From Alteraurantiacibacter aquimixticola (GTDB lineage Bacteria > Pseudomonadota > Alphaproteobacteria > Sphingomonadales > Sphingomonadaceae): DNA of 64,000 nt. Made by a program: the position numbers and the translations under genes. Positions 3,165-18,741 of the stretch are shown piece by piece; positions within the stretch are counted from its first letter, which is position 1, and the number at the start of each line of letters is the position of its first letter. The notes under the pieces were generated by a model. That model did no database searches, was not told the origin of the DNA, and worked only from the letters and a program-made list of their open reading frames with translations. The DNA lies in contig NZ_SSHH01000001.1 in the NCBI RefSeq assembly GCF_004965515.1, forward strand, positions 995,280 to 1,059,279, given 5' to 3'.

Positions 3165-4553
3165 TTACTCGCCGCCGCTCGACAGCAGGCGATAGCCCCA
3201 CGCAGGCAGGCTCACCGTATCGCCAGCCGCGATGGTCACCTCACCGCCGGTCTGGAACTCGGTATAGGCACCGGCCGCCAACCCATCGGCCAACGTAGCC
3301 TCCACGGGCTTGCCGGACAGGTTGAACAGGCCCAGCACCTTGTTGCCATCCTGCTGGCGCACCCAGCCGAACAGCTGCTGCGGCTTGTCATTGACGACCT
3401 GGCTCATGATGGCACCCCACTTGCCGTTGGCCAGCGCGGGGTTGGCATCGCGGAAGGCAATCAGGTCCGCCAATAGCTGGCCGTATGCGCAGCCTTCGCC
3501 CTGGCTCCAGTCGATCGGGTCCTTCTCGAAGAACTCCAGCCGTTTGGCGTTGCAGGTTTCCTGCCCGTTATGGACCATCGGCAGGCCCTGGTGGGTGAAG
3601 GCAAGCGCGGTCATTGCGTCCAGCGCCGGGCCGTAATTCTCGTAGATGGTGCCTTCCCACGCATTGCTGTCGTGGTTCTCGATATAGGTCAGTCGCATGG
3701 CCTCACGCGGCCACAGGCTTTCATGTTCTGCGTAGTATCCGAACAGGCCGGTGGCATCCGCTGCGCCTGCGGCAATGCGCTTTGACGTGTGGTGCCAGTC
3801 CCAGCCATAGGTCGCATCGAAGGCGGCGCGGTGGTAGCTCGATTGCTGTACCTCGCCGAGCATGAAGACCGGGCGAATGGTATCGAGCCGGGCGCGCATG
3901 GTTTCCCAGAAATCGACCGGGACATAGCCCGCCACGTCGGCGCGGAAGCCATCGACGCCGTAGTCGCGTACCCACATTTCCATCGCCTCGCCGACATGCT
4001 TGCGCACGCCGGGCTGCGACCAGTCGAGATCGATGATGTCGGACCAGTCCCACCAGGGTGTGGGGCGGAATTGGCCGTCCCAGGTCTTTTCGTACCAGTC
4101 CGGGTGGTCGGTCGCGAGCTGGTTGTCCCACGCCGTATGGTTGGCGACGAGGTCGAGGATCACATGAAAGCCCTGTTCGTGGGCCGCATCGATGAAGCTC
4201 CTCAGATCCTCCTCGCTGCCGAATTCGGGGTTCACCGCGTAATAGTCCTGCACCGAATAGGGGCTGCCCAGCGTGCCCTTGCGGTTCACTGCGCCAATCG
4301 GGTGGATGGGCATCAGCCACAGGATATCGACGCCCAGTTCCTTGAGCCGCGGCAGCTCCCGCTCGGCGGCGGCAAAGGTGCCCTCGGGCGTGAATTGGCG
4401 CGTGTTGATCTGATACAGCACGGCGTCGCGCGTCCATTCGGGCGCCTCGATCTGCACGTAGGGCTGCAGCTCCCAGGGATCGCTGGTAGCAGTGTCGGCC
4501 TGGTTGCAGGCTGCGAGCAGCAGCGGGGATAGCGCGAGGGCGAGTTTACGCAT
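3165..4553 (-). CDS. GH13 alpha-amylase family lipoprotein
   Basis: Alpha-amylase family glycoside hydrolase of 462 residues, predicted to be a lipoprotein: the signal LALSPLLLAAC gives a lipobox with Cys16. The (beta/alpha)8 barrel motifs are all visible: DLVANH (about 134-139), GVDGFRAD with nucleophile Asp206, MLGEV with acid/base Glu234, and IENHDS with Asp295. A small C-terminal beta domain follows. The start overlaps the end of the upstream MFS gene by 8 bases, indicating one operon transcribed from the LacI side. The enzyme would cleave alpha-1,4-glucans in the periplasm or at the cell surface. Its exact subfamily (amylase or neopullulanase-like) cannot be fixed by eye. Confidence 0.9.
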   Translation of the reverse strand: MRKLALALSPLLLAACNQADTATSDPWELQPYVQIEAPEWTRDAVLYQINTRQFTPEGTFAAAERELPRLKELGVDILWLMPIHPIGAVNRKGTLGSPYSVQDYYAVNPEFGSEEDLRSFIDAAHEQGFHVILDLVANHTAWDNQLATDHPDWYEKTWDGQFRPTPWWDWSDIIDLDWSQPGVRKHVGEAMEMWVRDYGVDGFRADVAGYVPVDFWETMRARLDTIRPVFMLGEVQQSSYHRAAFDATYGWDWHHTSKRIAAGAADATGLFGYYAEHESLWPREAMRLTYIENHDSNAWEGTIYENYGPALDAMTALAFTHQGLPMVHNGQETCNAKRLEFFEKDPIDWSQGEGCAYGQLLADLIAFRDANPALANGKWGAIMSQVVNDKPQQLFGWVRQQDGNKVLGLFNLSGKPVEATLADGLAAGAYTEFQTGGEVTIAAGDTVSLPAWGYRLLSSGGE

Positions 4554-6072
4554 GGGAAATCCCTTGATTGGCCGAGGGCAGGACGGCCTGCACGCGCAGC
4601 ATGGCGGCGGCGGAAATCAGCCAGACGATTGCGGCGAACAACATCGTCCACACGGGCTCGCCGGGGAATAGCCACAACATGATCTGCCCCATGACCGTCG
4701 CGACCAGCAGCTGCGGCACGACGATGAAGATGTTGAACAGCCCCATGTAAATGCCGAGCTTCTTCTGCGGCAGGTTCGAGGCGAGGATGGCGTAGGGCAT
4801 GGCAAGGATGCTGGCCCAGGCGATGCCGATGCCCACTTCGGCCAGCAGCAGTGCCTGGGCATCGCGCACGAAGAAGAACATCAGGAAGCCGATGGCGCCC
4901 AGCGTCAGGCAGATCGAGTGCGTCAGCACCTGTCCGAACTTGCGGCTGAACCACGGCAACAGCACCAGCGCGGCAATCGCGGCCACGCCATTGTAGACCG
5001 TGAACAGCAGGTTCACCCAGTTCGCGCCTTCGTTATAGGCGGCGCTCGTGGTGTCGGTGCTGCCAAAGACATATTGCGTCACCACGGGCGTGGTGTTGAT
5101 CCACATGATGAACAGCGCCGACCAGCTGAAGAACTGCACGACCGCCAGCCGCTTCATCACTTCGGGCATGCCGGAAAAATCACCAACGATGCTGGAGAGC
5201 ATGTTGGTCGTCCGTCCCTGCCGTGCGAGGCCGATGGCAATGGCGGACAGCAGGCCGTAAATGGCCAGCAGCGCGCCAAGCAGGAAGAGCTCCTTCTCCA
5301 GCGCGAACAGCTGCACTGCGGCCAGCACGACTGCACCGGCCACGAGCCAGACCATGCTGGACATGTAGCTCTTGGCGGCAAGCAGGCGGGCGGGCTCGCC
5401 GTCCTCCACCGCTTCAACCCCGGCAAAGGCGGCCTGTTCTTCGGGGCTGTATTCCCTGATGGTCACAACGGTCCACAGCACCGCCAGCAGCAGTGCCGCG
5501 CTCCCCGCCCAGAAACTCCATTTCACCGTATCGGGAATGCCGCCATCCGGCGCGATATTGGCGACGCCCAGATGTTCCAGCAGGTAAGGGAAGATCGATC
5601 CGACAACCGCGCCCGCGCCGATAAAGGCCGTCTGCACGGCATAGCCTGCGCTGTGCTGGTCGGTGTGCAGCATGTCGCCCACGAAGGCGCGGAACGGCTC
5701 CATGGAGACGTTCAGGCTGGCATCGAGGACCCACAGCATGGCGGCTGCAAACAGCAGTGGTGCTCCGAAAGCCGGGGCGAGCGGCATAACGAAGAGCGCA
5801 ATCGCCGCGAAGATCGCGCCGGTCAGGAAATAGGGTCGGCGACGGCCCAGGCGGTTCCATGTTCGATCCGAAAGGTGGCCGATGATCGGTTGCACGATCA
5901 GCCCGGTCAGCGGCGCGGCAACCCATAGTGCGGGCAAGTCGTCCATGCTCGCGCCCAAGGTCTGGAACACGCGGCTCATGTTCGAATTTTGCAGCGCGAA
6001 GCCGATCTGGATGCCGAAAAAGCCGAAGCTAATGTTCCACAGGCCCCAGAAACTCTGACGCGGTTTTTCCAT
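4546..6072 (-). CDS. MFS sugar transporter (GPH/SLC45-like), probable maltose/maltodextrin importer
   Basis: Twelve-helix major facilitator protein of 508 residues in the inner membrane. The start [13 protein letters not shown] at 6072 is preceded by GGAAGGAAC; the open frame extends upstream to 6249 but that part lacks coding character. The loop between helices 2 and 3 reads [16 protein letters not shown], a signature of glycoside/sucrose-type MFS carriers (MFS_2/SLC45-like). Sphingomonads and Caulobacter use such carriers in place of an ABC importer in mal loci. It is followed by the overlapping GH13 gene, so both are likely co-expressed. A LacI-type site lies about 90-110 bases upstream (6161-6180). 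The substrate is inferred from context. Confidence 0.88.
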
Positions 6073-6160
6073 CCTTCGTGTTCCTTCCCATTGCGCGGAA
6101 GGTCTGTGGCCGTCCTGCGTCAATGCGAAGGGGCTGGCACGAATGCGTCCAGCCGACAAC

Positions 6161-6180
6161 ACGCATACGAATGTGCAGGA
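6161..6180. promoter_or_regulatory. candidate LacI-type operator upstream of the MFS gene
   Basis: The sequence CACGCATACGAATGTGCAGG shares GCATAC, a gap, then TGCAGG with the perfect palindrome at 7359-7378 (13 of 20 positions). It lies between the lacI stop and the divergently related MFS promoter region. Assignment as an operator is inference from similarity and position. Confidence 0.45.
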
Positions 6181-6184
6181 CTGC

Positions 6185-7276
6185 TCAGGCGGTTGGCTGC
6201 TTGGGCGGTTTCGGCGGTGCAGGCGCTGGTGGAACGGGAGGGCAGGCACCGCTGCTGGCGCGCACGATCAGCCTGGTCGGCAGGCGATTGTCCGGCCCTT
6301 CGCGGTCCTCCACCTTGGCCAGCAGGGTTTCGACGAGCCGCTCACCGGCACCCTTGATGTCCTGCATGATGGTCGTCAGCGGCGGGGTGGTGAGGCTGGC
6401 GGCTGGGATATCGTCGAAACCCACCATCGCCACATCTTCGGGCACGCGCAGGCCCGCCTCGGCCAAGGCGCGCATCGCGCCGATGGCGATCAGGTCACTG
6501 GCAGCGAAGATGCCATCGAATTCCTGTCCACTCTCGATCAGGTTCTGCATGGCCGCATGGCCGGCTTCCTCGGTGGTGATGGCATCGTATTGCAGCGAGC
6601 TATCGGGCGTCAGCCCCGCATCCTTCAGTGCCTGGCACATGCCGCGATAGCGCTGCGCGAATTCGGGGTAGTGCTCGTCCGCATGGCCAAGGAAGGCGAG
6701 CTTGCGCCGCCCCTGCTCGACAAGGTGTGCACCTGCCAGCTTGCCTGCGCCGAAATTGTCCGAGCCAATGGTCGAGCCCGAGCTGTCGCTGGTGACCGAG
6801 CCCCAACGCGCGAAATGCGTACCCTGCCGCTCCAGCTGGTCGAGCCGTTCCCGGTAGAGCGTATAGTCGCCATAGCCCAATAGGATGAGCCCGTCTGCGC
6901 GGTGGCTGTCCTGGTATTGCACGTGCCAATCATCTTCCATCCGCTGGAACGAGATGAGCAGGTCCAGCCCGTGATTGGCGCAGGCGCGTGTGATCGATCC
7001 CAGCATCGCGAGGAAGAACGGGTTGATCATGGACTCGTCAGGCGTCGGGTCCTCGAAGAACAGCAGGGCGATGGTATTGGAGCGTTGCGAGCGCAACGAA
7101 GAGGCGTTCTTGTCGACCGTATAGTTGAGGTCCTGCGCAATCTGCTTGATCCGCGCGCGCGTCTTCTCGCTGACTGACTTGTCGCCACGCAAGGCGCGGC
7201 TGACGGTGGGCTGCGACACCCCGGCAAGATATGCGATATCGAAGCTGGTCGGTCGACCAGTAGCTGCGCGTCCCAT
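6185..7276 (-). CDS. LacI-family transcriptional regulator of the glucan locus
   Basis: LacI/GalR-type repressor of 363 residues. The start at 7276 (MGRAATGRPTSFDIAYLAG) is supported by GGGAGAGGAC upstream and by the N-terminal helix-turn-helix FDIAYLAGVSQPTVSRALRG (about residues 12-31); upstream in-frame sequence is not coding-like. A periplasmic-binding-protein-like sugar domain follows (FDGIFAASDLIAIGAMRAL, VGFDDIP). The C-terminus carries an unusual proline-rich tail (PPVPPAPAPPKPPK), which may be dispensable. The gene is divergent from the DUF6445 gene, and a perfect 20-base palindrome sits between them, suggesting autoregulation. By analogy with MalR/MalI-type regulators it would respond to maltose or a related sugar; that ligand is inferred. 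Confidence 0.92.
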   Translation of the reverse strand: MGRAATGRPTSFDIAYLAGVSQPTVSRALRGDKSVSEKTRARIKQIAQDLNYTVDKNASSLRSQRSNTIALLFFEDPTPDESMINPFFLAMLGSITRACANHGLDLLISFQRMEDDWHVQYQDSHRADGLILLGYGDYTLYRERLDQLERQGTHFARWGSVTSDSSGSTIGSDNFGAGKLAGAHLVEQGRRKLAFLGHADEHYPEFAQRYRGMCQALKDAGLTPDSSLQYDAITTEEAGHAAMQNLIESGQEFDGIFAASDLIAIGAMRALAEAGLRVPEDVAMVGFDDIPAASLTTPPLTTIMQDIKGAGERLVETLLAKVEDREGPDNRLPTRLIVRASSGACPPVPPAPAPPKPPKQPTA

Positions 7277-7403: not shown

Positions 7404-8102
7404 ATGTCCCAGTCCCCGCTAGCCCTTTCGCCCACGTACGGCCTGACTGTCTCGCATTTCGGCGAGGAAGCGCAGCCGCTGTTGCAGGTGGATGGCGCAC
7501 TCGCCGACCTGGCGCTGGTGCGCAAAATTGCCGCAAGGCACAGCTATCGTTCGATCGGACCGTTCTATCCGGGACTGCGTGCGCCCGTATCGGCGAAAAT
7601 CGCCATGCCGCTGGTGGAGCCGTTGCTGCCGAAAATGTGCGAAACCTTCGGCCTGGAGCGCGAACCGGCCTATTTCGAGTGCTACCTCAGCCTCGTCACC
7701 AAGGCGCCTGGCGAACTTGCGCCAATCCAGCGCCTGCCGCATTTCGACGGGACCGAACCCGAGCGACTTGCCGTATTGCTGTTCCTGTCGGACGACAGCG
7801 CGTGCGGTACGGCCTTCTATCGGCAGTGCTCGACCGGCTACGAAAGCGTCGATGGTTCGCGCTACGATTGCTACCTGGCGGAACTGGAGGCGGCCACCGC
7901 GCAACATGGCATTCCGCCCGCCAGCTATATCGGGGCAGACTCGCCCATCTTCACGCGAACGCTCCGGGTGGCGGGCGCGGCGAACCGGATGATTGCCTAT
8001 CGCGGCAACACGCTTCATTGCGCCGCGCTTCGCGATGATTTCACGCCCGATGCCGATCCCCGCAGCGGCAGGCTGACACTGAATCTGTTTTTAAAAGCCT
8101 GA
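7404..8102 (+). CDS. DUF6445 family protein
   Basis: Protein of 232 residues that resembles DUF6445, a family often found next to TonB receptors and halogenases in sphingomonads and Caulobacter. The ATG at 7404 is chosen because the long upstream frame overlaps the lacI gene. It has no signal peptide, so it is likely cytoplasmic. A histidine-acid motif RLPHFDGTEP and a later GNTLHCA, followed by GRLTLNLFL, resemble the HxD...H iron site of 2-oxoglutarate/Fe(II) oxygenases, but this similarity is by eye only. Its position inside the glucan locus suggests a shared role with the halogenase gene. No substrate can be named. Confidence 0.75.
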   Translation: MSQSPLALSPTYGLTVSHFGEEAQPLLQVDGALADLALVRKIAARHSYRSIGPFYPGLRAPVSAKIAMPLVEPLLPKMCETFGLEREPAYFECYLSLVTKAPGELAPIQRLPHFDGTEPERLAVLLFLSDDSACGTAFYRQCSTGYESVDGSRYDCYLAELEAATAQHGIPPASYIGADSPIFTRTLRVAGAANRMIAYRGNTLHCAALRDDFTPDADPRSGRLTLNLFLKA

Positions 8103-8155: not shown

Positions 8156-8173
8156 TTGCGTATACGTATGCTG
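8156..8173. promoter_or_regulatory. candidate LacI-type operator upstream of receptor 2
   Basis: TTGCGTATACGTATGCTG contains the palindrome ATACGTAT and shares the ATACGNATG pattern with the site at 6161-6180. It lies about 140 bases before the receptor ATG, in a 210-base non-coding region that otherwise shows no recognisable gene. Confidence 0.4.
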
Positions 8174-8312: not shown

Positions 8313-11165
8313 ATGAATATCCGCAACACCCTTCGCGCCGGTGCCAGCACCACCGCATTTGCCATTGCCGCCCTGGCCTTGCCGGGCGTCGCCTTCGCAC
8401 AGGATGCAGGCGAGCAGCAGGACGAGGCCACCGTCGCAGACGACGGCTTGGATGCCGGCAGCGTCATCATCGTCTCCGGCTATCGCCAGGCGCTGGAGTC
8501 GGCCATTGGCGAGAAGCGCCAGAGCACGGCAATCGTCGAAGCCTTCTCGGCGGAAGATATCGGCAAGCTGCCCGACGTCTCCATCGCCGAAACGCTTGGC
8601 CGCTTGCCCGGCCTTGCCGTGCAGCGTGTCGACGGCCGTGCGCAGAGCCTCTCGATCCGCGGCCTTGGCCCGGACTATTCGACCTCGCTGCTGAACGGTC
8701 GCCAGATCGTTTCCTCGGGCGACAACCGCGCGGTTGAATACGACCAGTACCCATCCGAACTCATCAATAGCGGTGTCGTCTACAAGACGCCTTATGCCGG
8801 CCTGATCGGTCAGGGTCTGGCCGGTACGGTCGACCTGCGCACGATCCGTCCGCTGGACCAGAACGAGACCGTGATCTCGGTCAGCGGTCGCCTGGAGTTC
8901 AACGAAGACGGGTCGCTCAACCCCGATATCAAGGGTTGGGGCTACCGCGCCACCGGCACCTATGTCGACCAGTTCGCTGACGATACGCTGGGTGTCGCGC
9001 TGGGCGTGGCTTATCAGTCGAGCCCGAGCCAGGTCGAACGGTTCAACGCATGGGGTTATCCCGAACTTGGCCAGGGCGATGTCGATGGTGGCAACGCGCC
9101 CGACGGTTCGCAGGGCGCGCTGGTGCTGGGCGGCATGAAGCCCTTCGCCCGTTCTGTCGATCTTGATCGCCTCGGCGTGTTTGGCACGCTGGAATGGGAG
9201 CCGTCGCCGGAATGGAACAGCTCGATCGACGTGTTCTACGCCGATTATCGCGAGCGTATCCCGCAGCGCGGCATCGAATTCCCGCTGAATCCGGGCTGGG
9301 GTGCCACCACCACCATTACCGACATCAGCGATGCGGACGGCATTGCCGACAGCACAACCTTTGCCGGTGTACGTCCGGTCGTGCGCAATGACTATGACCG
9401 CAAGGATACCGAGACCTTCGCGATCGGCTGGAACACCCAGTACGACAGCGACGACGCGATCCTGATGCTCGACGTCGCCTATTCGCGCTCGGACCGCAGG
9501 TTGCAGCAGATCGAGAGCTATTCGGGCCTCAGCTATGCGGCTGATCCGGCTTCGCCTTCGGACACTGTCGTTGCCATGCTCAGCTCGGGCGGCTTTCCGT
9601 TCCAGTTCAGCAACCAGATCGATTATTCCGACACCGACCTGGTCCAGCTGACCGATCCGCGTGGCTGGGGTGCTGGCGGCATTGTGCAGGCCGGTTTCAT
9701 CAACGACACCGAGACCGAGGACGAACTGTGGACGATCCGCGGCGAGATCGCCCTTCCGGTCGATCGCATCTCCTTCGTCGACCAGGTCGTGTTCGGCGCG
9801 GCCTTCGACGATCGCACCAAGTCGCGCGACATCACGCAGAACTTCATCAGCCTGGCGGGTGGCCCTTCGGTCTATGCCGACCAGGGAGCGGTAACCAGTG
9901 CGCCGATCCCCACGTCGGCATTGCTCGATCCCACCGCGTCGCTGAGCTTCATCGGCTTCGGCCCGCAGGTCGCCTACGATCCCTTCGCGCTGCTGAACGA
10001 TGGCACCTATGCGCTCACCGACGTGCAGAGTTCCAGCCTGCCCTTCCCGGGTGACTGGACCGTCAACGAGCAGGTGCTGACCGGCTATGTGCGTGTCGAT
10101 CTCGACGCCATGCTCGGGGACCTGCCGATGACTGGCAATATCGGCGTCCAGTTCGTGCAGACCGACCAGTCTTCCGACGGCTTCGAATCGCCGGGCGGTA
10201 TCGGTGCCACGCGGACGCCGGTTTTCCAGAGCGACGAATATCTTGACGTGCTGCCCAGCGCGACGCTGAGCTTCGAAGTCGGTCCGGACACCATGCTTCG
10301 CCTGGGCGCGGCTCGCACTCTGGCCCGTCCGCGCATGGACCAGCTCAACGCTTCGTATAGCGCCAGCGTCGCGAACCAGCCCCAGGGTGCGCTCGATTCA
10401 ATCTTCAGCGGCAGTGGCGGCAACCCGCAGCTCCGCCCCTATATCGCGGATAGTGTGGACCTTTCGGTCGAGCACTATTTCGCTGGCGGCCAAGGCTATT
10501 TCGCACTCGCTACCTACTACAAGTGGCTCGACGATTTCGTGAACCCGAGCGCCTCCGTGGTGCGCGATTTCTCCTATCTCGTGTCTTCGCTGACCGGATC
10601 CCAGCTGGACGCCTACAACGCGAGCGGCACGCAGAACCTCGGCTTCGTGAGCGGTCCGGACAATGGAGCCGACGGCCACATCTTCGGTATCGAAGCGAGC
10701 ATGGCGCTGCCGTTCGGTATGTTCTCCGAGGCGCTGGAAGGTTTCGGCCTGCAGAGCAGCGTGTCCTACACCGACAGCGAGCTGACGATCCATCCGCAGC
10801 AGGGACCCTCATTCGAAACCGATGTTCCGGGTCTGTCGGAATGGGTGGTCAACACCACTGCCTTCTATGAGACCGGCGGCTTCGAGGCGCGCATCAGCCA
10901 TCGTTACCGGACCGAATTCCTTGCCGAATTCATCGGTATCTCGGCTAGCCGCACCTTCCGCGAGACCTATCCGGAATCGATCTTCGATGCCCAGATCGGT
11001 TATCGCTTTGAAAGTGGCTCGCTCGATGGCCTGTCGATCACGCTGCAGGCGCTGAACCTGACGGACGAACCCTTCGTCTCGTTCCAGAACGACGATGAAG
11101 CACAGATCATCGACTACGAATCCTATGGTCGCACTTACCTGATCGGGGCGTCTTATCGCTTCTGA
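8313..11165 (+). CDS. TonB-dependent receptor (TIGR01782 type), alpha-glucan uptake
   Basis: Outer-membrane receptor of 950 residues. A signal peptide ends near GVAFA (about residues 25-29), a TonB-box-like SVIIVSGYRQ follows, and the plug carries GKLPDVSIAETLGRLPGLAV and IRGLGPDYSTSLLNGRQ. The protein ends with an aromatic-rich strand and C-terminal Phe (YLIGASYRF). It lies between the DUF6445 gene and the halogenase/hydrolase operon and is followed by its own hairpin terminator. It is comparable in role to Caulobacter MalA, the maltodextrin receptor; the substrate here is inferred from the linked GH13 and GH97 genes. Confidence 0.93.
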   Translation: MNIRNTLRAGASTTAFAIAALALPGVAFAQDAGEQQDEATVADDGLDAGSVIIVSGYRQALESAIGEKRQSTAIVEAFSAEDIGKLPDVSIAETLGRLPGLAVQRVDGRAQSLSIRGLGPDYSTSLLNGRQIVSSGDNRAVEYDQYPSELINSGVVYKTPYAGLIGQGLAGTVDLRTIRPLDQNETVISVSGRLEFNEDGSLNPDIKGWGYRATGTYVDQFADDTLGVALGVAYQSSPSQVERFNAWGYPELGQGDVDGGNAPDGSQGALVLGGMKPFARSVDLDRLGVFGTLEWEPSPEWNSSIDVFYADYRERIPQRGIEFPLNPGWGATTTITDISDADGIADSTTFAGVRPVVRNDYDRKDTETFAIGWNTQYDSDDAILMLDVAYSRSDRRLQQIESYSGLSYAADPASPSDTVVAMLSSGGFPFQFSNQIDYSDTDLVQLTDPRGWGAGGIVQAGFINDTETEDELWTIRGEIALPVDRISFVDQVVFGAAFDDRTKSRDITQNFISLAGGPSVYADQGAVTSAPIPTSALLDPTASLSFIGFGPQVAYDPFALLNDGTYALTDVQSSSLPFPGDWTVNEQVLTGYVRVDLDAMLGDLPMTGNIGVQFVQTDQSSDGFESPGGIGATRTPVFQSDEYLDVLPSATLSFEVGPDTMLRLGAARTLARPRMDQLNASYSASVANQPQGALDSIFSGSGGNPQLRPYIADSVDLSVEHYFAGGQGYFALATYYKWLDDFVNPSASVVRDFSYLVSSLTGSQLDAYNASGTQNLGFVSGPDNGADGHIFGIEASMALPFGMFSEALEGFGLQSSVSYTDSELTIHPQQGPSFETDVPGLSEWVVNTTAFYETGGFEARISHRYRTEFLAEFIGISASRTFRETYPESIFDAQIGYRFESGSLDGLSITLQALNLTDEPFVSFQNDDEAQIIDYESYGRTYLIGASYRF

Positions 11166-11176
11166 TTGGTAACAGG

Positions 11177-11217
11177 CCGGCGGGGAGATGCTCCTCCTCC
11201 CCTATGCTCCCCGCCGG
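11177..11217 (+). terminator. hairpin terminator after receptor 2
   Basis: An 11-bp perfect stem (CCGGCGGGGAG at 11177-11187 and its complement at 11207-11217) begins 11 bases after the receptor stop and is followed by TTCACTGTTCC. It separates the receptor transcript from the halogenase operon, implying that the operon has its own promoter within 11218-11284. Confidence 0.7.
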
Positions 11218-11284: not shown

Positions 11285-12799
11285 ATGACGGACACAGCAG
11301 TAAACGACTTCGTGATTGCCGGCGGCGGCACGGCCGGATGGATGACCGCCGCCGCGCTTTCCCGCTTCGCGCCCCCGGGCACGTCGGTCACGCTCGTTGA
11401 AAGCGAAGCCATCGGCACCGTGGGCGTGGGCGAGGCAACGATCCCGCAGATCCACCTTTTCAATTCAGCCCTGGGTCTCGACGAGGCCGAATTCCTGCGC
11501 GAGACGCGCGGCAGCTTCAAGCTGGGGATCGAGTTCGACGGCTGGCGGCGCGAGGGCGAGAGCTACATGCACGCCTTTGGCGACGTGGGCCGCCCTCTGG
11601 GCTTGCTGCCTTTCCAGCACTACTGGCTGCGCGCGCAACACGCGGGCTTTGCCAAGCCGCTGCAACGCTATTCCCTGAACGAGCTGGCCGCGCGCACCAT
11701 GCGTATGTACCGCGGCAAGACAGCTGCGGGCCGCGAGATGCCCTATGCCTATCACTTCGATGCGGGCCTTTATGCCGCCTATCTGCGCCGCTTCGCCGAA
11801 GCGCGCGGGGTAACGCGCGTTGAAGGCAGGATCGCCAAGGTCGCCCGGCACGGCGAAAGCGGCGATATTGCCGCACTGGAGCTGGAAGGTGGCGAGCGGG
11901 TCGAGGGCAGCTTCTTCATCGACTGCACGGGCTTTCGCGCGCTGCTGATCGAAGGCGCGCTGGGTGCGGGTTTCGACGACTGGAGCAATTTCCTCCCCTG
12001 CGACCGCGCCATGGCCGTTCCGTGCGAAGGTGGCGGGGACTTCACCCCCTATACCAGGGCCATCGCCCGCAAGGCCGGTTGGCAGTGGCGCATCCCCTTG
12101 CAGCACCGCATCGGCAATGGCCTCGTCTATTGCAGCGATTTCCTGTCGGATGACGAAGCCGCCGAGACCTTGCTCGCCAATCTCGATGGCGCGCCACAGG
12201 CCGAACCGCGCCCGATCCGTTTCACCACCGGAAAGCGCTGCGTGCACTGGAAGAACAACTGCCTCGCGATAGGCCTGGCCGCCGGGTTCATGGAGCCGAT
12301 GGAATCGACATCGATCCACATGATCCAGAGTGCGATCAGCCGCTTCCTGGCAGTCCTGCCGCGAGGCCGGGGCGAGCCTGCAACGGTGGACTGGTTCAAC
12401 GCCCAGAGCAGCTTCGAATGGGAGTGCATCCGCGATTTCCTGGTGCTGCACTACACCGCCAACGAGCGGGAAGGGCGGCCCTTCTGGGACCATGTCCGCA
12501 GCATGGAACTACCCGCAACGCTCACCGCAAGGATGGAGCAATGGCGCGCGGGCGGCTTCATCCACCGCGAGCACGAGGAACTGTTTACCGAAATCGCCTG
12601 GTTCCAGGTTTTCGCCGGACAGGGCGTCGAGGCGCGTGGTTACAATCCAATGGCCGACACTCTGCCCGAGGCGGAACTGCGCGCGCTGCTGGACGAAACA
12701 GAGGCGTCGCTTGTCGAACAGGTGAAGCCGATGCCGCGCCATCTCGATTTTCTGCAAGGCTTCGTGACTGGTAAGACAAACGAAAAGGTTACTGCATGA
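11285..12799 (+). CDS. flavin-dependent (tryptophan-type) halogenase
   Basis: Flavin-dependent halogenase-like protein of 504 residues. The ATG at 11285 follows GGGGGCAACT and places the FAD-binding GGGTAGWMTAAA at residues 13-24. The main functional marks of the family are present: GVGEATIP (47-54), the active-site lysine in GSFKLGI (Lys79, matching Lys79 of PrnA), WQWRIP (266-271, the WxWxIP signature) and the GFMEPMEST region (334-342) carrying the conserved glutamates. It is therefore not visibly inactivated. It is the first gene of a coupled operon with three glycoside hydrolases and overlaps the next gene by ATGA. Such genes are common beside TonB receptors in this group; BrvH from a Brevundimonas metagenome halogenates indole. 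The natural substrate and any link to glucan use are unknown. A reduced-flavin supplier is not encoded nearby. Confidence 0.88.
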   Translation: MTDTAVNDFVIAGGGTAGWMTAAALSRFAPPGTSVTLVESEAIGTVGVGEATIPQIHLFNSALGLDEAEFLRETRGSFKLGIEFDGWRREGESYMHAFGDVGRPLGLLPFQHYWLRAQHAGFAKPLQRYSLNELAARTMRMYRGKTAAGREMPYAYHFDAGLYAAYLRRFAEARGVTRVEGRIAKVARHGESGDIAALELEGGERVEGSFFIDCTGFRALLIEGALGAGFDDWSNFLPCDRAMAVPCEGGGDFTPYTRAIARKAGWQWRIPLQHRIGNGLVYCSDFLSDDEAAETLLANLDGAPQAEPRPIRFTTGKRCVHWKNNCLAIGLAAGFMEPMESTSIHMIQSAISRFLAVLPRGRGEPATVDWFNAQSSFEWECIRDFLVLHYTANEREGRPFWDHVRSMELPATLTARMEQWRAGGFIHREHEELFTEIAWFQVFAGQGVEARGYNPMADTLPEAELRALLDETEASLVEQVKPMPRHLDFLQGFVTGKTNEKVTA

Positions 12800-14634
12800 C
12801 GATCCGATCCGCCCTGAAACTCGCGGTCGGGCTCGCCGCTCTGACCATGGCTGGTTGCACCACCGCGCCCGACGAAAGCGATGGCGCAGCCTATCTCGAC
12901 CGCTTGCCGAGCGAGGAGATCATCTATTTCGTGCTGCCGGATCGCTTCGAAAACGGCGATCCTTCGAACGACACCGGGGAATTTGCCGGCGACCGCCTGC
13001 AAACCGGCTTCGACCCCGCAGCGCGCGGCTTCTTTCATGGCGGCGACCTGGCCGGTCTTACCAGCCGCCTCGACTACCTCGAAGGAATGGGCATCACCGC
13101 GATCTGGTTCGCGCCGATTTTCCAGAACAAGCCGGTGCAGGGCCCGCCAGGAGATGAAAGCGCGGGGTATCACGGCTACTGGGTCACCGATTTCACCCGG
13201 CCTGACAGCCATTTCGGCACGCGCGAGGAATTTGTCGCCTTCGTGGATGCCGCGCATGCGCGCGGGATGAAGGTCTACATGGACATCATCACCAACCACA
13301 CGGCTGACGTGATTACCTATGCCGATGGTGACGAGAGCAATTTCGAATATCGCAGCCTGGGCGACTATCCCTATTCCACGCGCGGCGGCGTGGATGGAGA
13401 GCCGATCAACCCCGGCTTCACCGGCCATGAGGATTCGAGCGAGGAAAATTTCGCCCGGCTGGTCGATCCGAACTACGCCTATATTCCCGAAGTGCCCGAG
13501 GCGGAGCGCGACGTGAAAGTGCCCGTCTGGCTGAACGATCCGATCTACTACCACCATCGCGGCAACAGCAGCTTCACCGGCGAAGACAGTCGTTTCGGGG
13601 ATTTTTCCGGGCTTGATGACCTGTTTACCGAACATCCGCGCGTGCGCGCCGGCATGCAGGAAATCTTCTGCGACTGGATCACCGAAACCCGTGTCGACGG
13701 CTTCCGCATCGATACCGCGCGTCACGTCGATCCCGGCTTCTGGCAGGAATTCGTACCCGCCATGCGGGAATGCGCGGCCGGGGCCGGCATCCCCAACTTC
13801 CACATGTTCGGCGAAGTGTACAAGGACGTGCCCGAGAACGGCTATATCGCCGAATACACGCGCCGCGACGGCCTGCCTGCCGTACTCGACTTCGCCTTCC
13901 AGGCCGCCATGCGCGAGCTTCTGGGGCGCAATCAGGGCACGGTCGTGCTGGCGCAAATGTTCGATGGCGACGTATTGTATGAGGATGGCGAGGAGACTGC
14001 CCGCACGCTGCCGACCTTCCTCGGCAATCATGACATGGGCCGCTTCTCCACCCTGATCCGCGATGACATTCCCGGTATCTCGCAGGACGAGCTCCTACAG
14101 CGGGTGATGCTGGGCCACGCCATGATGCTCAGCCTGCGCGGCTCTCCCACCATCTATTATGGTGACGAGCAGGGCTTCGTTGGCGATGGCAACGACCAGC
14201 GTGCGCGCGAGGACATGTTCCCCAGTCTGACGGCGGAATACAACGACAACGTACTGATCGGCACCGATGCGACCACGGCGGACAGCAATTTCGACATCGC
14301 CCACCCTCTCTATCGCCTGATCGCGGAGTTCTCCGCCTTGCGCCGTGCACATCCGGCACTCGCGCGCGGCCCTCAGCAGGTGCGCCACTATGAACAGGAG
14401 GCAGGCATTTTCGCAGCAGCCCGTTTCGATCCCGACGACGGGACCGAATATCTCGCCGTGTTCAACACCAGCGACGAGGAGCGCTCGGTCAATATGTGGG
14501 TCAATTACAATGCCCGCGCGTTCGAGACACTGGCGGGCGAATGTCCCGCCATCGTTTCCGCACCGGGCAGTGCAGCCTTCACGCTGCCTGCGTTCGGCTG
14601 GGCGCTCTGCCGGGTGAGCGAGGTTGCCGAATGA
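12796..14634 (+). CDS. GH13 alpha-amylase family lipoprotein (large)
   Basis: GH13 hydrolase of 612 residues with a lipoprotein signal (AALTMAGC, Cys21). Barrel motifs: DIITNHTAD, VDGFRIDTARH with nucleophile Asp306, MFGEV with Glu340 and LGNHDMGR with Asp413. A long inserted B-domain-like stretch between the first motifs and the nucleophile, and a C-terminal beta domain, account for its size. Its ATG overlaps the halogenase stop (ATGA), and its stop overlaps the next start in the same way, so the operon is translationally coupled. It probably acts as an alpha-amylase or cyclomaltodextrinase-type enzyme on imported oligosaccharides. Confidence 0.9.
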   Translation: MTIRSALKLAVGLAALTMAGCTTAPDESDGAAYLDRLPSEEIIYFVLPDRFENGDPSNDTGEFAGDRLQTGFDPAARGFFHGGDLAGLTSRLDYLEGMGITAIWFAPIFQNKPVQGPPGDESAGYHGYWVTDFTRPDSHFGTREEFVAFVDAAHARGMKVYMDIITNHTADVITYADGDESNFEYRSLGDYPYSTRGGVDGEPINPGFTGHEDSSEENFARLVDPNYAYIPEVPEAERDVKVPVWLNDPIYYHHRGNSSFTGEDSRFGDFSGLDDLFTEHPRVRAGMQEIFCDWITETRVDGFRIDTARHVDPGFWQEFVPAMRECAAGAGIPNFHMFGEVYKDVPENGYIAEYTRRDGLPAVLDFAFQAAMRELLGRNQGTVVLAQMFDGDVLYEDGEETARTLPTFLGNHDMGRFSTLIRDDIPGISQDELLQRVMLGHAMMLSLRGSPTIYYGDEQGFVGDGNDQRAREDMFPSLTAEYNDNVLIGTDATTADSNFDIAHPLYRLIAEFSALRRAHPALARGPQQVRHYEQEAGIFAAARFDPDDGTEYLAVFNTSDEERSVNMWVNYNARAFETLAGECPAIVSAPGSAAFTLPAFGWALCRVSEVAE

Positions 14635-16226
14635 GCACTTCCGAAACTCCCATGCCCTGGTGGAAAGGCGCATCGATCTACCAGATCTATCCGCGCAGCT
14701 TCATGGATTCGAACGGCGATGGCATTGGCGACCTGCCTGGCATCACCTCCCGGCTGGACCATGTCGCTTCCCTTGGTGTCGATGCCATCTGGATCAGCCC
14801 GTTCTTCACCAGCCCGATGAAGGATTTCGGTTACGACGTTTCGGACTATCGCGACGTCGATCCGATTTTCGGCGAGCTGGCTGATTTCGACGTGCTGGTG
14901 ACACGCGCGCACGAACTGGGCCTGAAAGTCCTGATCGACCAGGTCTATTCGCACACGTCCGATGAGCACGCCTGGTTTGCCGAAAGCCGGTTCAGCCGCG
15001 ACGGTGCCAAGGCGGACTGGTACGTGTGGGCCGATGCCAAGCCCGATGGCTCACCACCGTCCAACTGGCAGTCCGTATTCGGCGGCCCTGCCTGGACCTG
15101 GGATGCAAGGCGCGGGCAGTTCTACCTGCACAATTTCCTCTCATCTCAGCCGCAGCTCAATCTGCACAACCGGGAGGTGCAGGATGCAGTGCTCGACGTG
15201 ATGCGTTTCTGGCTCGATCGCGGGGTCGACGGGTTCCGCATCGATGCGCTCAACTTCGCGATGCACGACCCGCAACTGCGCGACAATCCGCCCGCGCCCC
15301 ATAACGGCAAACAGCGCACGCGCCCGTTCGATTTCCAGCTCAAGCTCCATAACCAGTCGCATGCGGATATCCCGCTTTTCATCGAGCGGATCCGCGCCCT
15401 GACCGACGAGTTCGACGGCATATTCACCGTCGCCGAGGTGGGCGGGGACGATGCCGACAAGGAGATGAAGGCGTTCACGGCGGGAGAGAGCCATCTCAAC
15501 TCGGCCTATGGCTTCGATTTCCTCTACGCCGACAAGCTGACCGGCGAACTGGTGTGCAAGGCGCTGGCGAACTGGCCGGATGAGGAAGGCCTCGGCTGGC
15601 CCAGCTGGGCTTTCGAGAACCACGACGCGCCGCGCGCCCTGTCGCGCTGGATCGACAACGGCAACCGCGATGCCTTCGCGCGGATGAAGATGCTGCTGCT
15701 TGCTGTCCTGCGGGGCAACATCATCCTCTACCAGGGCGAGGAGCTGGGCCTGACGCAGGTCGATATCCCCTTCGACCAGCTGCACGATCCCGAAGCCATC
15801 GCCAACTGGCCGCTCACGCTCAGCCGCGATGGTGCGCGCACGCCGATGCCGTGGGACACGCGTGGCTGCGGCGGCTTTGGCAGCGAAACGCCGTGGCTGC
15901 CGATGGGCGAGGAAAACCGCGCCCGTGCCGTGGCGGTGCAGGAGGCGGACGAAGCATCCTTGCTGAACCACGCCCGCGCCATGCTGGCGCTACGCAAGGC
16001 GCATCCGGCACTGCATCACGGTGCAGTTTCGCGCTGCGAAGTACGCGGAACGCTGCTGGTGCTGGGCCGCCGTAGCGAGGGCGAATGCGTGCGCGCTTTC
16101 GTCAATCTCGGCGCCGATCCGATCGCACTTGAGCCCGGTGAAGCCGATGGCGCGGTACTCGCCAAGGTCAACGGCGCGAGCGCAAAGTTACTTCCCCCTT
16201 ATGCAGCATTGGTGGTGCAGGCATGA
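14631..16226 (+). CDS. GH13 alpha-glucosidase (GH13_23-like)
   Basis: Exo-acting alpha-glucosidase of 531 residues. The ATG at 14631 overlaps the upstream stop (ATGA); the open frame continues upstream but lies over the end of the amylase gene. The N-terminus WWKGASIYQIYPRSFMDSNG is typical of oligo-1,6-/alpha-glucosidases. Catalytic motifs: GVDGFRIDAL with Asp205, VAEVGG with Glu269 and FENHDAPR with Asp332; the first region is QVYSHTSDEH. No signal peptide is seen, so it should act in the cytoplasm on sugars brought in by the MFS carrier, releasing glucose from maltose and maltodextrins. Confidence 0.92.
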   Translation: MSTSETPMPWWKGASIYQIYPRSFMDSNGDGIGDLPGITSRLDHVASLGVDAIWISPFFTSPMKDFGYDVSDYRDVDPIFGELADFDVLVTRAHELGLKVLIDQVYSHTSDEHAWFAESRFSRDGAKADWYVWADAKPDGSPPSNWQSVFGGPAWTWDARRGQFYLHNFLSSQPQLNLHNREVQDAVLDVMRFWLDRGVDGFRIDALNFAMHDPQLRDNPPAPHNGKQRTRPFDFQLKLHNQSHADIPLFIERIRALTDEFDGIFTVAEVGGDDADKEMKAFTAGESHLNSAYGFDFLYADKLTGELVCKALANWPDEEGLGWPSWAFENHDAPRALSRWIDNGNRDAFARMKMLLLAVLRGNIILYQGEELGLTQVDIPFDQLHDPEAIANWPLTLSRDGARTPMPWDTRGCGGFGSETPWLPMGEENRARAVAVQEADEASLLNHARAMLALRKAHPALHHGAVSRCEVRGTLLVLGRRSEGECVRAFVNLGADPIALEPGEADGAVLAKVNGASAKLLPPYAALVVQA

Positions 16227-18259
16227 ATATCGTCCGATCCCTTATCGCAGCCTCCACGCTGGTGGCATGGCCCACGGCCGCGCTGGCAGGCACGGTCTCC
16301 TCGCCCGATGGCCGCATCGTCGCCACGCTGGAGGCCGATGGCGAAGGCATTCCCGTCTACGAAGTCAGCTTCAATGGCGAACCCGTGATCGCACGTTCGA
16401 CCATCGGGTTCAATTTCACCGATGCCGACCCGATGCGGCGCGGTTTCGAAGTGATCGCGGAGACCACCGACAGCGTCGACGCTACATGGGAACAGCCATG
16501 GGGCGAACGGCGCTTCGTCCGTGACAACCACAATGAGCTGGCCGTCACCTTCCGCCAGCAGGACGAGGCTGCGCGCGAAATGACCGTGCGCATGCGCGTG
16601 TTCGACGATGGCTTGGGTTTCCGCATGGAATTCCCCGAGCAGGCGAGCATGCCGGTGGCCAACATTGCCGAGGAGTTGACCGAATTCCGCATTGCCGGCG
16701 ATGGCGAGGCCTGGTCGATCCAGGCAGGCGACTGGAACCGCTACGAATACCTCTATGAGCGCACCCCGATCAGCGCGCTGTCCACCGTGCACACGCCAGT
16801 GACCATGGTGCTGGAAAACGGCACGCATGTCTCCTTCCACGAGGCGGCTCTGGTCGATTATTCGGGCATGTGGCTGCGCCGCATGGAAGGCACGAATTTC
16901 CGCGCGCAGCTTGCGCCCAGTCCGCGCGGGCCGAAAGTGGTGCGTGAAGGCGCGTTCCACACGCCGTGGCGCACGATCCAGATCGCTGACGGCCCGGCAG
17001 GCCTGTTCGAAAGCGCGATGATCCTCAATCTGAACGAGCCCAATGCGCTGGGCGACGTCAGCTGGTTCAAGCCACACAAATATATCGGCATCTGGTGGGA
17101 AATGCACCTCGACGAGAGCAGCTGGAACAGCGGGGACCGTCACGGCGCGACCACCGCGAATGCCATGCGCTATATCGACTTCGCTGCCGAGCACGGCTTT
17201 CGCGGCGTGCTGATCGAAGGCTGGAATGTCGGCTGGGACGGCACATGGTTCGGCAATGGGCGCGACTTCAGCTTCACCCAGTCCTACCCCGATTTCGATA
17301 TCGAGGCCGTCGCTGCCTATGCCGCCGAGCGCGGCGTGCGGATCATCGGCCACCACGAAACCGGCGGCAATATCGGTGTCTATGAGCGCCAGCTCGAAGA
17401 GGCGATGGCCTTCTACGAAAGCCTTGGCATCGATGCGGTGAAGACCGGCTATGTCGCCGATGCCGGCGGCGTGATCGCGCCGGATGGCGAGGGCGGCGAA
17501 GTCTTCGTCTGGCATGATGGGCAGGAGGCTGTGCAACACCACCTGCGCGTGGTCCGGATTGCTGCCGATCACCACATCGCAGTCAATCCGCATGAGCCGG
17601 TGAAGGATACGGGCCTGCGCCGCACCTATCCCAACTGGGTCAGTCGCGAAGGCGCGCGCGGGGCCGAATACGACGCATGGGGCGTGCCCAAGAACGGGCC
17701 GGACCATGTGCCCGAGATGATCTTCACCCGCCTGCTTTCGGGGCCGATGGACTATACGCCCGGCGTTTTCTCGCTGCGTGGCCGCGGGGCCGAGGCGCCT
17801 GACATTCCCTCCACGCTGGCGCGCCAGCTGGCCTTCTACGTGGCGATCTACTCACCGATCCAGATGGTGGCCGACCTGCCCGAGAATATCGCTGCCTACC
17901 CCGAGGCGCTCGACTGGGTGCAACGCGTGCCTGCTGACTGGAGCGAGAGCCGCCTGCTCGACGGCGCCGTGGGCGAATATGCGGTGATCGCGCGGCGGGA
18001 TCGCAATTCGCAAGGCTGGTATATCGGCGGCGTGACCGATGCCGAGGCACGCGATGCCACCGTGGCGCTGGACTTTCTCGACCCTGGCACCGCCTATGTC
18101 GCCACCATCTGGGAAGACGGTGAAACGGCAGACGGCCTGGGAGAGGATCGCCACGCGTTGGACGTGCGCAGCTACACGGTGACTTCTACCGACACCCTCA
18201 CCTTGCACATGGCACGCGCGGGTGGCTTCGCCATCGAGCTGGCACCTGCTGGCGAGTGA
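16223..18259 (+). CDS. GH97 alpha-glucosidase (SusB-like)
   Basis: Glycoside hydrolase family 97 protein of 678 residues, with a signal peptide ending near AALA (about residue 22), so periplasmic. Domain order matches SusB: an N-terminal beta-sandwich, a central barrel with GVLIEGWNVGWDGTW and RIIGHHETGGN (Glu379), then TYPNWVSREGARGAEYD (Glu476, Glu482), and a C-terminal beta domain. Glutamates at these positions match the inverting alpha-glucosidase branch, where they serve as base and acid and bind calcium; retaining GH97 galactosidases carry Asp instead. The ATG overlaps the preceding stop. A GTGA overlap at its own stop once led into a further halogenase gene, now broken. Confidence 0.92.
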   Translation: MNIVRSLIAASTLVAWPTAALAGTVSSPDGRIVATLEADGEGIPVYEVSFNGEPVIARSTIGFNFTDADPMRRGFEVIAETTDSVDATWEQPWGERRFVRDNHNELAVTFRQQDEAAREMTVRMRVFDDGLGFRMEFPEQASMPVANIAEELTEFRIAGDGEAWSIQAGDWNRYEYLYERTPISALSTVHTPVTMVLENGTHVSFHEAALVDYSGMWLRRMEGTNFRAQLAPSPRGPKVVREGAFHTPWRTIQIADGPAGLFESAMILNLNEPNALGDVSWFKPHKYIGIWWEMHLDESSWNSGDRHGATTANAMRYIDFAAEHGFRGVLIEGWNVGWDGTWFGNGRDFSFTQSYPDFDIEAVAAYAAERGVRIIGHHETGGNIGVYERQLEEAMAFYESLGIDAVKTGYVADAGGVIAPDGEGGEVFVWHDGQEAVQHHLRVVRIAADHHIAVNPHEPVKDTGLRRTYPNWVSREGARGAEYDAWGVPKNGPDHVPEMIFTRLLSGPMDYTPGVFSLRGRGAEAPDIPSTLARQLAFYVAIYSPIQMVADLPENIAAYPEALDWVQRVPADWSESRLLDGAVGEYAVIARRDRNSQGWYIGGVTDAEARDATVALDFLDPGTAYVATIWEDGETADGLGEDRHALDVRSYTVTSTDTLTLHMARAGGFAIELAPAGE

Positions 18260-18621
18260 GCTATCCAGCGCCTCCGCGCATCGTCGTTCCTGGCGGCGGC
18301 GGCGCGGGGGCGGACAACCGCTTGCCTGCTTCATCACCGCTGGGCTGGGCGCGGCGGCAAGGCCACCGTCGTCGAAAGCCCGGCAATCGGCATTTTCGGT
18401 GTGGGTGAAGGCTCTACGCCGTAGCTGAGGGCCATGTCCGATCTTCTCGGCATCGCCGAGGTTTCGATAAGCCTGTGCTGCCTGATGACCGGTTCCTTGC
18501 TGCAAGGCTGGCCGACGAAGGCAAGGCACCGCACCCGAGCGAGAATTTTCCCTTTCGGCCCAGCTACGGCTACCGCTTCGATGCCTTCAAGCTGGGTGCC
18601 TTTCGCATGATATTGCCGTGA
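18256..18621 (+). pseudogene. remnant of a second flavin-dependent halogenase
   Basis: Pieces of a halogenase can be read in shifting frames with stops and deletions: IVVPGGGGAG near the GTG at 18256 (from an FAD-binding motif), then TVVESPAIG and GVGEGSTP ending at a stop, LRAMSDLLGIAE, and finally APHPSENFPFRPSYGYRFDA with KLGAF. The order and motifs match the first 170 or so residues of the family (the intact copy has VESEAIGTVGVGEATIP and AYHFDA). The GTG overlaps the GH97 stop as GTGA, so the ancestor was the fifth coupled gene of the operon. The C-terminal two thirds are missing. Bases 18622-18741 hold no recognisable gene and probably contain the next promoter. Confidence 0.75.
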
Positions 18622-18741
18622 CAGGCGGAACGTAGCGATTCGGTCGCGCAAATCGCCCTGATTGCAAGAACGTTTCGCCCAGTGTCGGAACAGCGTTTTT
18701 GCTTTACCCGAAATCAACGCTTTTCAGCCTAATACGGTCGT

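Follow-up and report, generated by a model that had tools for sequence, protein, structure and literature searches.

Why should a sugar locus carry an intact flavin-dependent halogenase? The question is raised by a locus in the window, which is the whole stretch of 64,000 nucleotides analyzed here. The genes and sites considered, with the halogenase designated HAL1 and the remains of a second one designated HAL2, are as follows.

3165..4553, minus strand, third GH13 enzyme (PF00128, 116.6 bits)
4546..6249, minus strand, MFS sugar transporter (PF07690), true start uncertain
6185..7276, minus strand, divergent LacI-family regulator (PF00356 and PF13377)
7404..8102, plus strand, DUF6445 protein with a predicted Fe(II)/2OG oxygenase fold (PF20043, 211.8 bits)
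8160..8171, no strand assigned, operator-like palindrome GTATACGTATGC, 141 bp ahead of the receptor start
8313..11165, plus strand, TonB-dependent receptor of the TIGR01782 subfamily (560.7 bits, cut-off 310), first gene of the operon
11177..11217, plus strand, 11-bp perfect inverted repeat between the receptor gene and HAL1 (arms 11177-11187 and 11207-11217)
11285..12799, plus strand, HAL1, flavin-dependent halogenase of the BrvH/Xcc4156 type (PF04820)
12796..14634, plus strand, GH13a, GH13 enzyme with a lipoprotein-like signal by eye (PF00128, 206.9 bits)
14631..16226, plus strand, GH13b, GH13 enzyme with no signal visible by eye (PF00128, 393.8 bits)
16223..18259, plus strand, GH97 enzyme (PF10566, PF14508, and PF14509)
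18256..18622 (3' end approximate), plus strand, HAL2 relic, recognized by similarity to the HAL2 of relatives

Organization of the locus

The operon is arranged in the order receptor, HAL1, GH13a, GH13b, and GH97. HAL1 is therefore its second gene, and the leading position given to the halogenase in a preliminary description of this DNA falls to the receptor gene, which ends 119 bp upstream. Every junction from HAL1 onward is an ATGA stop/start overlap (12796-12799, 14631-14634, and 16223-16226), as had been noted for the coupling of the halogenase to three glycoside hydrolases, which can now be named as GH13, GH13, and GH97; likewise, what had looked like a sugar repressor is the divergent LacI-family regulator. 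The presence of a TonB receptor, a LacI-type regulator, a transporter, and alpha-glucan hydrolases makes this a maltose-type CUT locus, the sugar specificity of which is predicted. According to the available text of PMC1790865, the maltose CUT loci of Caulobacter (MalA) and Xanthomonas (XCC2469) contain a TonB receptor, a regulator, a sugar transporter, and alpha-glucan enzymes, as here, whereas loci of the window type have one or two halogenases as additional operon members. Neither the word halogenase nor the stem halogen occurs in the texts of PMC2996990, PMC1790865, and PMC7142613, and a report of a halogenase-TonB receptor pairing was not found in the open-access literature searched, although a first report is not claimed.

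Across the 3.43 Mb genome, the RYATACGTATRY form of the palindrome is present at a single site. Of 58 loci, counting the window, 54 have its core, ATACGTAT, ahead of the receptor gene, and this receptor-upstream stretch accounts for 55 of the 66 occurrences of ATACGTAT in these 58 loci. Since the motif was derived from the same loci, the genome count of RYATACGTATRY is the more independent check. A search of the window with the 12-base operator pattern, two mismatches being allowed, gave 3 matches where 2.18 were expected, which is no commoner than chance. The case for a putative operator is made by the single genomic RYATACGTATRY site together with the conservation of ATACGTAT upstream of the receptor. 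By sequence comparison, the receptor operon, HAL1 included, appears to be one transcription unit behind one putative LacI-type operator.

The inverted repeat at 11177-11217 could possibly act as an attenuator or mRNA stabilizer. A structured stretch follows the receptor gene in 46 of 58 loci (z below -2 against simple shuffles; the row for locus L064 in this test is an artefact), and the gap between receptor and HAL1 measures 48-349 bp across 63 of the best 80 loci surveyed.

Sequence features of the halogenase

The HAL1 ORF (window positions 11285-12799, plus strand) encodes 504 amino acids and scored 604.8 bits against PF04820 in a Pfam profile search, the curated cut-off being 21. It has the GxGxxG and WxWxIP signatures and the catalytic Lys and Glu: Lys79 lies within GSFKLGI, WQWRIP begins at residue 266, and GFMEPMEST begins at residue 334, which upholds the earlier reading of the gene as catalytically complete. 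K79, E337, and E340 are invariant across an 18-row alignment of HAL1 relatives and are kept in all 62 halogenases with at least 53% identity (window included), as well as in loci L057 and L100, in which HAL1 had been overlooked by the gene caller. We take E340 to be the catalytic Glu of PrnA and RebH, and K79 and E340 are presumably the halogen-transfer residues in the flavin-dependent halogenase family.

Four pairwise comparisons with relatives gave a dN/dS of 0.14-0.22 for HAL1, near the values for the receptor gene (0.18-0.27) and GH13b (0.16-0.25), and this supports purifying selection on the halogenase. The order receptor, HAL1, GH13, GH13, GH97, and HAL2 is found again in related genera; judged from these sequences, such a conserved arrangement combined with a dN/dS of that size is more than chance. 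HAL1 might alternatively be a hitchhiker without present use, as the decay of HAL2 in the window and the lack of HAL1 in several relatives could suggest, but that reading is highly improbable in view of the dN/dS and of the retention of HAL1 in 60 of the 65 loci of the receptor clade, a set mostly picked for HAL1.

The closest solved structures are 9luq from Pseudoalteromonas, 6y1w (Xcc4156), and 6frl (BrvH), at 41-47% identity over nearly the whole length and TM 0.91-0.93; fold, catalytic motifs, and short substrate loops are common to these and HAL1. The tryptophan halogenases RebH, PrnA, PyrH, and Thal share the superfamily and the catalytic motifs and are well behind, at 29-33% identity. 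In the second substrate loop HAL1 aligns without gaps to the short loop of Xcc4156, and in the first it is 3 residues longer than Xcc4156 and still short. As far as its sequence tells, HAL1 adds a member to the BrvH/Xcc4156 group, and it is quite probably an active flavin enzyme of that type. BrvH, Xcc4156, and 9luq are known as proteins in vitro or as crystals, whereas HAL1 is known from sequence, with its operon, operator, receptor link, and second halogenase. No signal peptide is visible by eye on HAL1, which therefore should be cytoplasmic.

The long tryptophan-binding loop of free-tryptophan halogenases was not found in HAL1 by alignment to Xcc4156; RebH, PrnA, PyrH, and Thal have this tryptophan-holding loop, according to the available portion of PMC7336383, and free tryptophan is not expected to be a HAL1 substrate. 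In the same portion, the two short loops are described as giving BrvH and Xcc4156 an open site. Both enzymes act on indoles and not on free tryptophan, the relatives in this group prefer bromide, and the native substrates of BrvH and the Xanthomonas halogenases are given as unknown, with a peptide substrate being considered by the authors (PMC5945002 and PMC7336383, as far as their available texts go). One could suppose that the target of HAL1 is a small aromatic molecule, either a signal or a metabolite (an indole or a phenol, for example), that is produced in the presence of the sugar, and the bromination of indole compounds in vitro by BrvH and Xcc4156 (available parts of PMC5945002 and PMC7336383) speaks for this. 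The activity of BrvH on indole is reported to be low, however, and the authors question whether indole is what the enzyme acts on in nature (PMC5945002, in the part available). A small aromatic target would also leave the link to the receptor unexplained, and we regard it as quite unlikely. Endogenous indole from tryptophanase was considered as a source and set aside, a tryptophanase match not having been found in the genome.

HAL2 and the GH97 gene

The relic at the end of the operon retains the GTGA overlap with GH97, but its frame is broken, the region of the catalytic Lys is missing, and similarity ends near residue 170 of about 500. In many relatives an intact HAL2, 34-39% identical to HAL1, closes the operon. 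Under the identity cut-offs used, HAL2 is present in 41 of 71 maltose-type operons, always alongside HAL1. Most of these 71 operons were chosen for carrying HAL1, so the share with HAL1 is not a frequency, and three of them (L129, L141, and L151) are without HAL1 only under the 50% cut, as they hold halogenases at about 49-50% identity. The GH97 protein of the window is 62-64% identical to those of congeners, as against 75-79% to those of three other genomes (G146, G078, and G239) in which HAL2 is absent after GH97. The window GH97 is likely an allele replacement by sequence comparison, and the replacement may have removed HAL2.

Association of HAL1 with the receptor

Partners of HAL1-related halogenases were surveyed in the best 80 loci from alpha-, beta-, and gammaproteobacteria. 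In 63 of these, the gene immediately upstream, on the same strand, encodes a TonB receptor; in the remainder the receptor is divergent (3 loci), lies within 6 kb (7), or was not found or the contig ended (7). The recurrence of halogenase-like genes beside TonB receptors, asserted in the preliminary description, is thus given numbers. The hydrolases beside these halogenases vary among GH13/GH97, GH3, GH10, GH30, and pullulanase. Several Xanthomonas and Pseudoxanthomonas loci have receptors of another cluster, Oar-like by Pfam in one representative (L196), and their halogenases group together on a tree limited to ORFs of 441-699 amino acids. HAL1 remains beside the receptor in two loci whose hydrolases have moved away (L073 and L100) and in one whose stretch has none (L081). 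The reverse is seen in four operons (L133, L134, L136, and L145) with a regulator, transporter, and hydrolases at orthologue level (58-73% identity to the window): their receptor belongs to a different subfamily (32-33%), and no HAL1 or HAL2 was found in the stretch. Three of the four belong to one genus, another genome of which (G207) has the usual receptor and both halogenases. Within the genome of the window itself, a halogenase lies within 6 kb of 3 of 5 TIGR01782 receptors versus 0 of 43 other TonB receptors (Fisher p 0.0006).

These comparisons suggest that the steadiest partner of HAL1 is the receptor, more than the hydrolases, as would be expected of a receptor-modifying enzyme, although the mirror-tree signal is modest and the comparison is a tie: the best partner of the receptor is HAL1 (partial r 0.27), and HAL1 is equally near GH13b (0.27), in the 38 of 61 loci that hold all seven genes, L057 and L100 being missing because their HAL1 was uncalled. 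The function of HAL1 fairly probably belongs to the receptor. An aromatic group on imported maltodextrin-like glycosides is another conceivable target, given that HAL1 shares operon, operator, and ATGA coupling with the hydrolases and is as close to GH13b as to the receptor in the mirror-tree comparison. Related halogenases are, however, also found with GH3, GH10, GH30, or pullulanase genes, and the four operons with orthologous hydrolases have no HAL1, so that we hold such a glycoside target to be improbable. The earlier interpretation was right as to an intact halogenase in a regulated sugar operon and is amended as to its leading position and its preference for a glucan-linked aromatic, which is not favored because the set of hydrolases differs between loci while a receptor stays.

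The receptor link has exceptions. Five loci of the receptor clade (L124, L126, L127, L128, and L135) are without HAL1, and a halogenase is absent from the stretch around a sixth receptor of the clade (L125). The receptors without HAL1 sit at four places on the receptor tree, which corresponds to at least four losses. No receptor column was found to track the loss of HAL1 (65 versus 6 rows, a comparison of low power, in which the best p was matched by 18% of permutations), nor did any W, Y, or H column cleanly separate partnered from unpartnered receptors across all receptor types. A residue tracking halogenase presence, as a receptor-modifying enzyme might leave, was therefore not found in a comparison of low power, and the site may differ by clade. 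Three candidate residues were rejected: W844 is replaced in 3 of the 6 receptors without a halogenase but also in 9 of the 65 others, and of Y555 and Y722, the sole positions to pass the conservation filter, the latter is universal and the former weakly enriched. A recognized receptor was not found near one halogenase of the genome from which the window comes (C1:238042), nor near those of L097 and L104.

Oxygenase and SapC genes in the neighborhood

The genome has a single DUF6445 match, the gene upstream of the receptor (7404-8102). The model of its product has a pLDDT of 95.3, and the best structural matches are Fe(II)/2OG oxygenases such as SnoK, HygX, and SnoN (E about 1e-5, TM about 0.5, 10-16% identity). 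In an alignment of 17 rows, H113, D115, H205, and R223 do not vary; they correspond to the HxD, H, and Arg of Fe(II)/2OG oxygenases. A PDB sequence search with DUF6445 gave nothing useful, and literature on this family was not found among open-access papers. The modeled fold and these residues together lead to the prediction of an Fe(II)/2-oxoglutarate oxygenase fold. DUF6445 is present in a minority of the maltose-type loci and is therefore not obligatory.

Both cupin_8 matches of the genome, and one of its two SapC matches, sit in its two other receptor-halogenase clusters (the SapC match in one of them). The three receptor-halogenase clusters of the genome thus contain all of its cupin_8 and DUF6445 genes, two and one respectively; a chance of 1e-5 calculated for these three oxygenase genes assumes a 75 kb target and independence and is given no weight. 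Cupin_8 proteins include protein hydroxylases. In regulon reconstructions, some chitin/GlcNAc loci reportedly include a tryptophan halogenase next to SapC. Divergent DUF6445-halogenase pairs were observed at L097:8382-10699 and L104:8484-10792, with no recognized receptor found nearby.

Proposed role of HAL1

On balance, HAL1 would seem to be a dedicated tailoring accessory of the upstream TonB-dependent maltodextrin receptor. It would be a halogenase dependent on FADH2, O2, and halide, having an open substrate site as in the BrvH/Xcc4156 group and made together with the receptor under one LacI-type operator. Reduced flavin would be supplied by a separate reductase (PF01613 flavin reductase has one match in the genome, unlinked to the locus) and would react with O2 to yield hypohalite, which K79 and E340 would pass on to an exposed aromatic group in the open site. 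The reaction would take place in the cytoplasm, ahead of receptor export, on an aromatic group either of the receptor polypeptide or of something that the receptor handles. HAL1 may work together with an Fe/2OG oxygenase, namely DUF6445 in this locus and JmjC-like cupin_8 in the sister loci, and also with HAL2 in most relatives that have HAL1.

The same chemistry could serve without a halogenated product, with HAL1 providing hypohalite or peroxide as a means of competition or of defence against phages in the vicinity of the receptor, which phages may use, or performing another flavin oxidation. TonB receptors serve as phage receptors, and flavin machinery by itself can release reactive species. 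A part in virus-host receptor interactions has been speculated for halogenases (PMC11337851, in the text available). Against a role of this kind, which appears improbable, the presumed halogen-transfer residues K79 and E340 are invariant.

As regards the target of a tailoring HAL1, the receptor polypeptide itself is rather unlikely. It is unlikely also that the scheme extends to a general one, in which proteobacterial sugar-uptake TonB receptors would be halogenated and hydroxylated before export by a flavin halogenase and an oxygenase of the Fe/2OG type, either DUF6445 or JmjC-like cupin_8 and in some cases accompanied by SapC; BrvH-type halogenases would then have their native role in this tailoring. 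Halogenation of the receptor or of its cargo, should it occur, would be a modification not expected in the nutrient uptake of bacteria. The conserved receptor-halogenase pairing narrows the substrate search to a single receptor and operator with a small set of partner enzymes. Natural controls are provided by operons without a halogenase, operons with another receptor, and a species that no longer has a functional HAL2.

Other halogenase relatives

Degenerate halogenase paralogues without the catalytic Lys were observed at L009:9993-11480, with similar ORFs in L103, L108, L112, L113, L117, and L122. These paralogues lie next to TonB receptors, each in tandem with an intact halogenase, and could possibly act as non-catalytic partners. 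Further relatives of the halogenase, mostly at about 30% identity to HAL1, are encoded on viral contigs (L233-L312).
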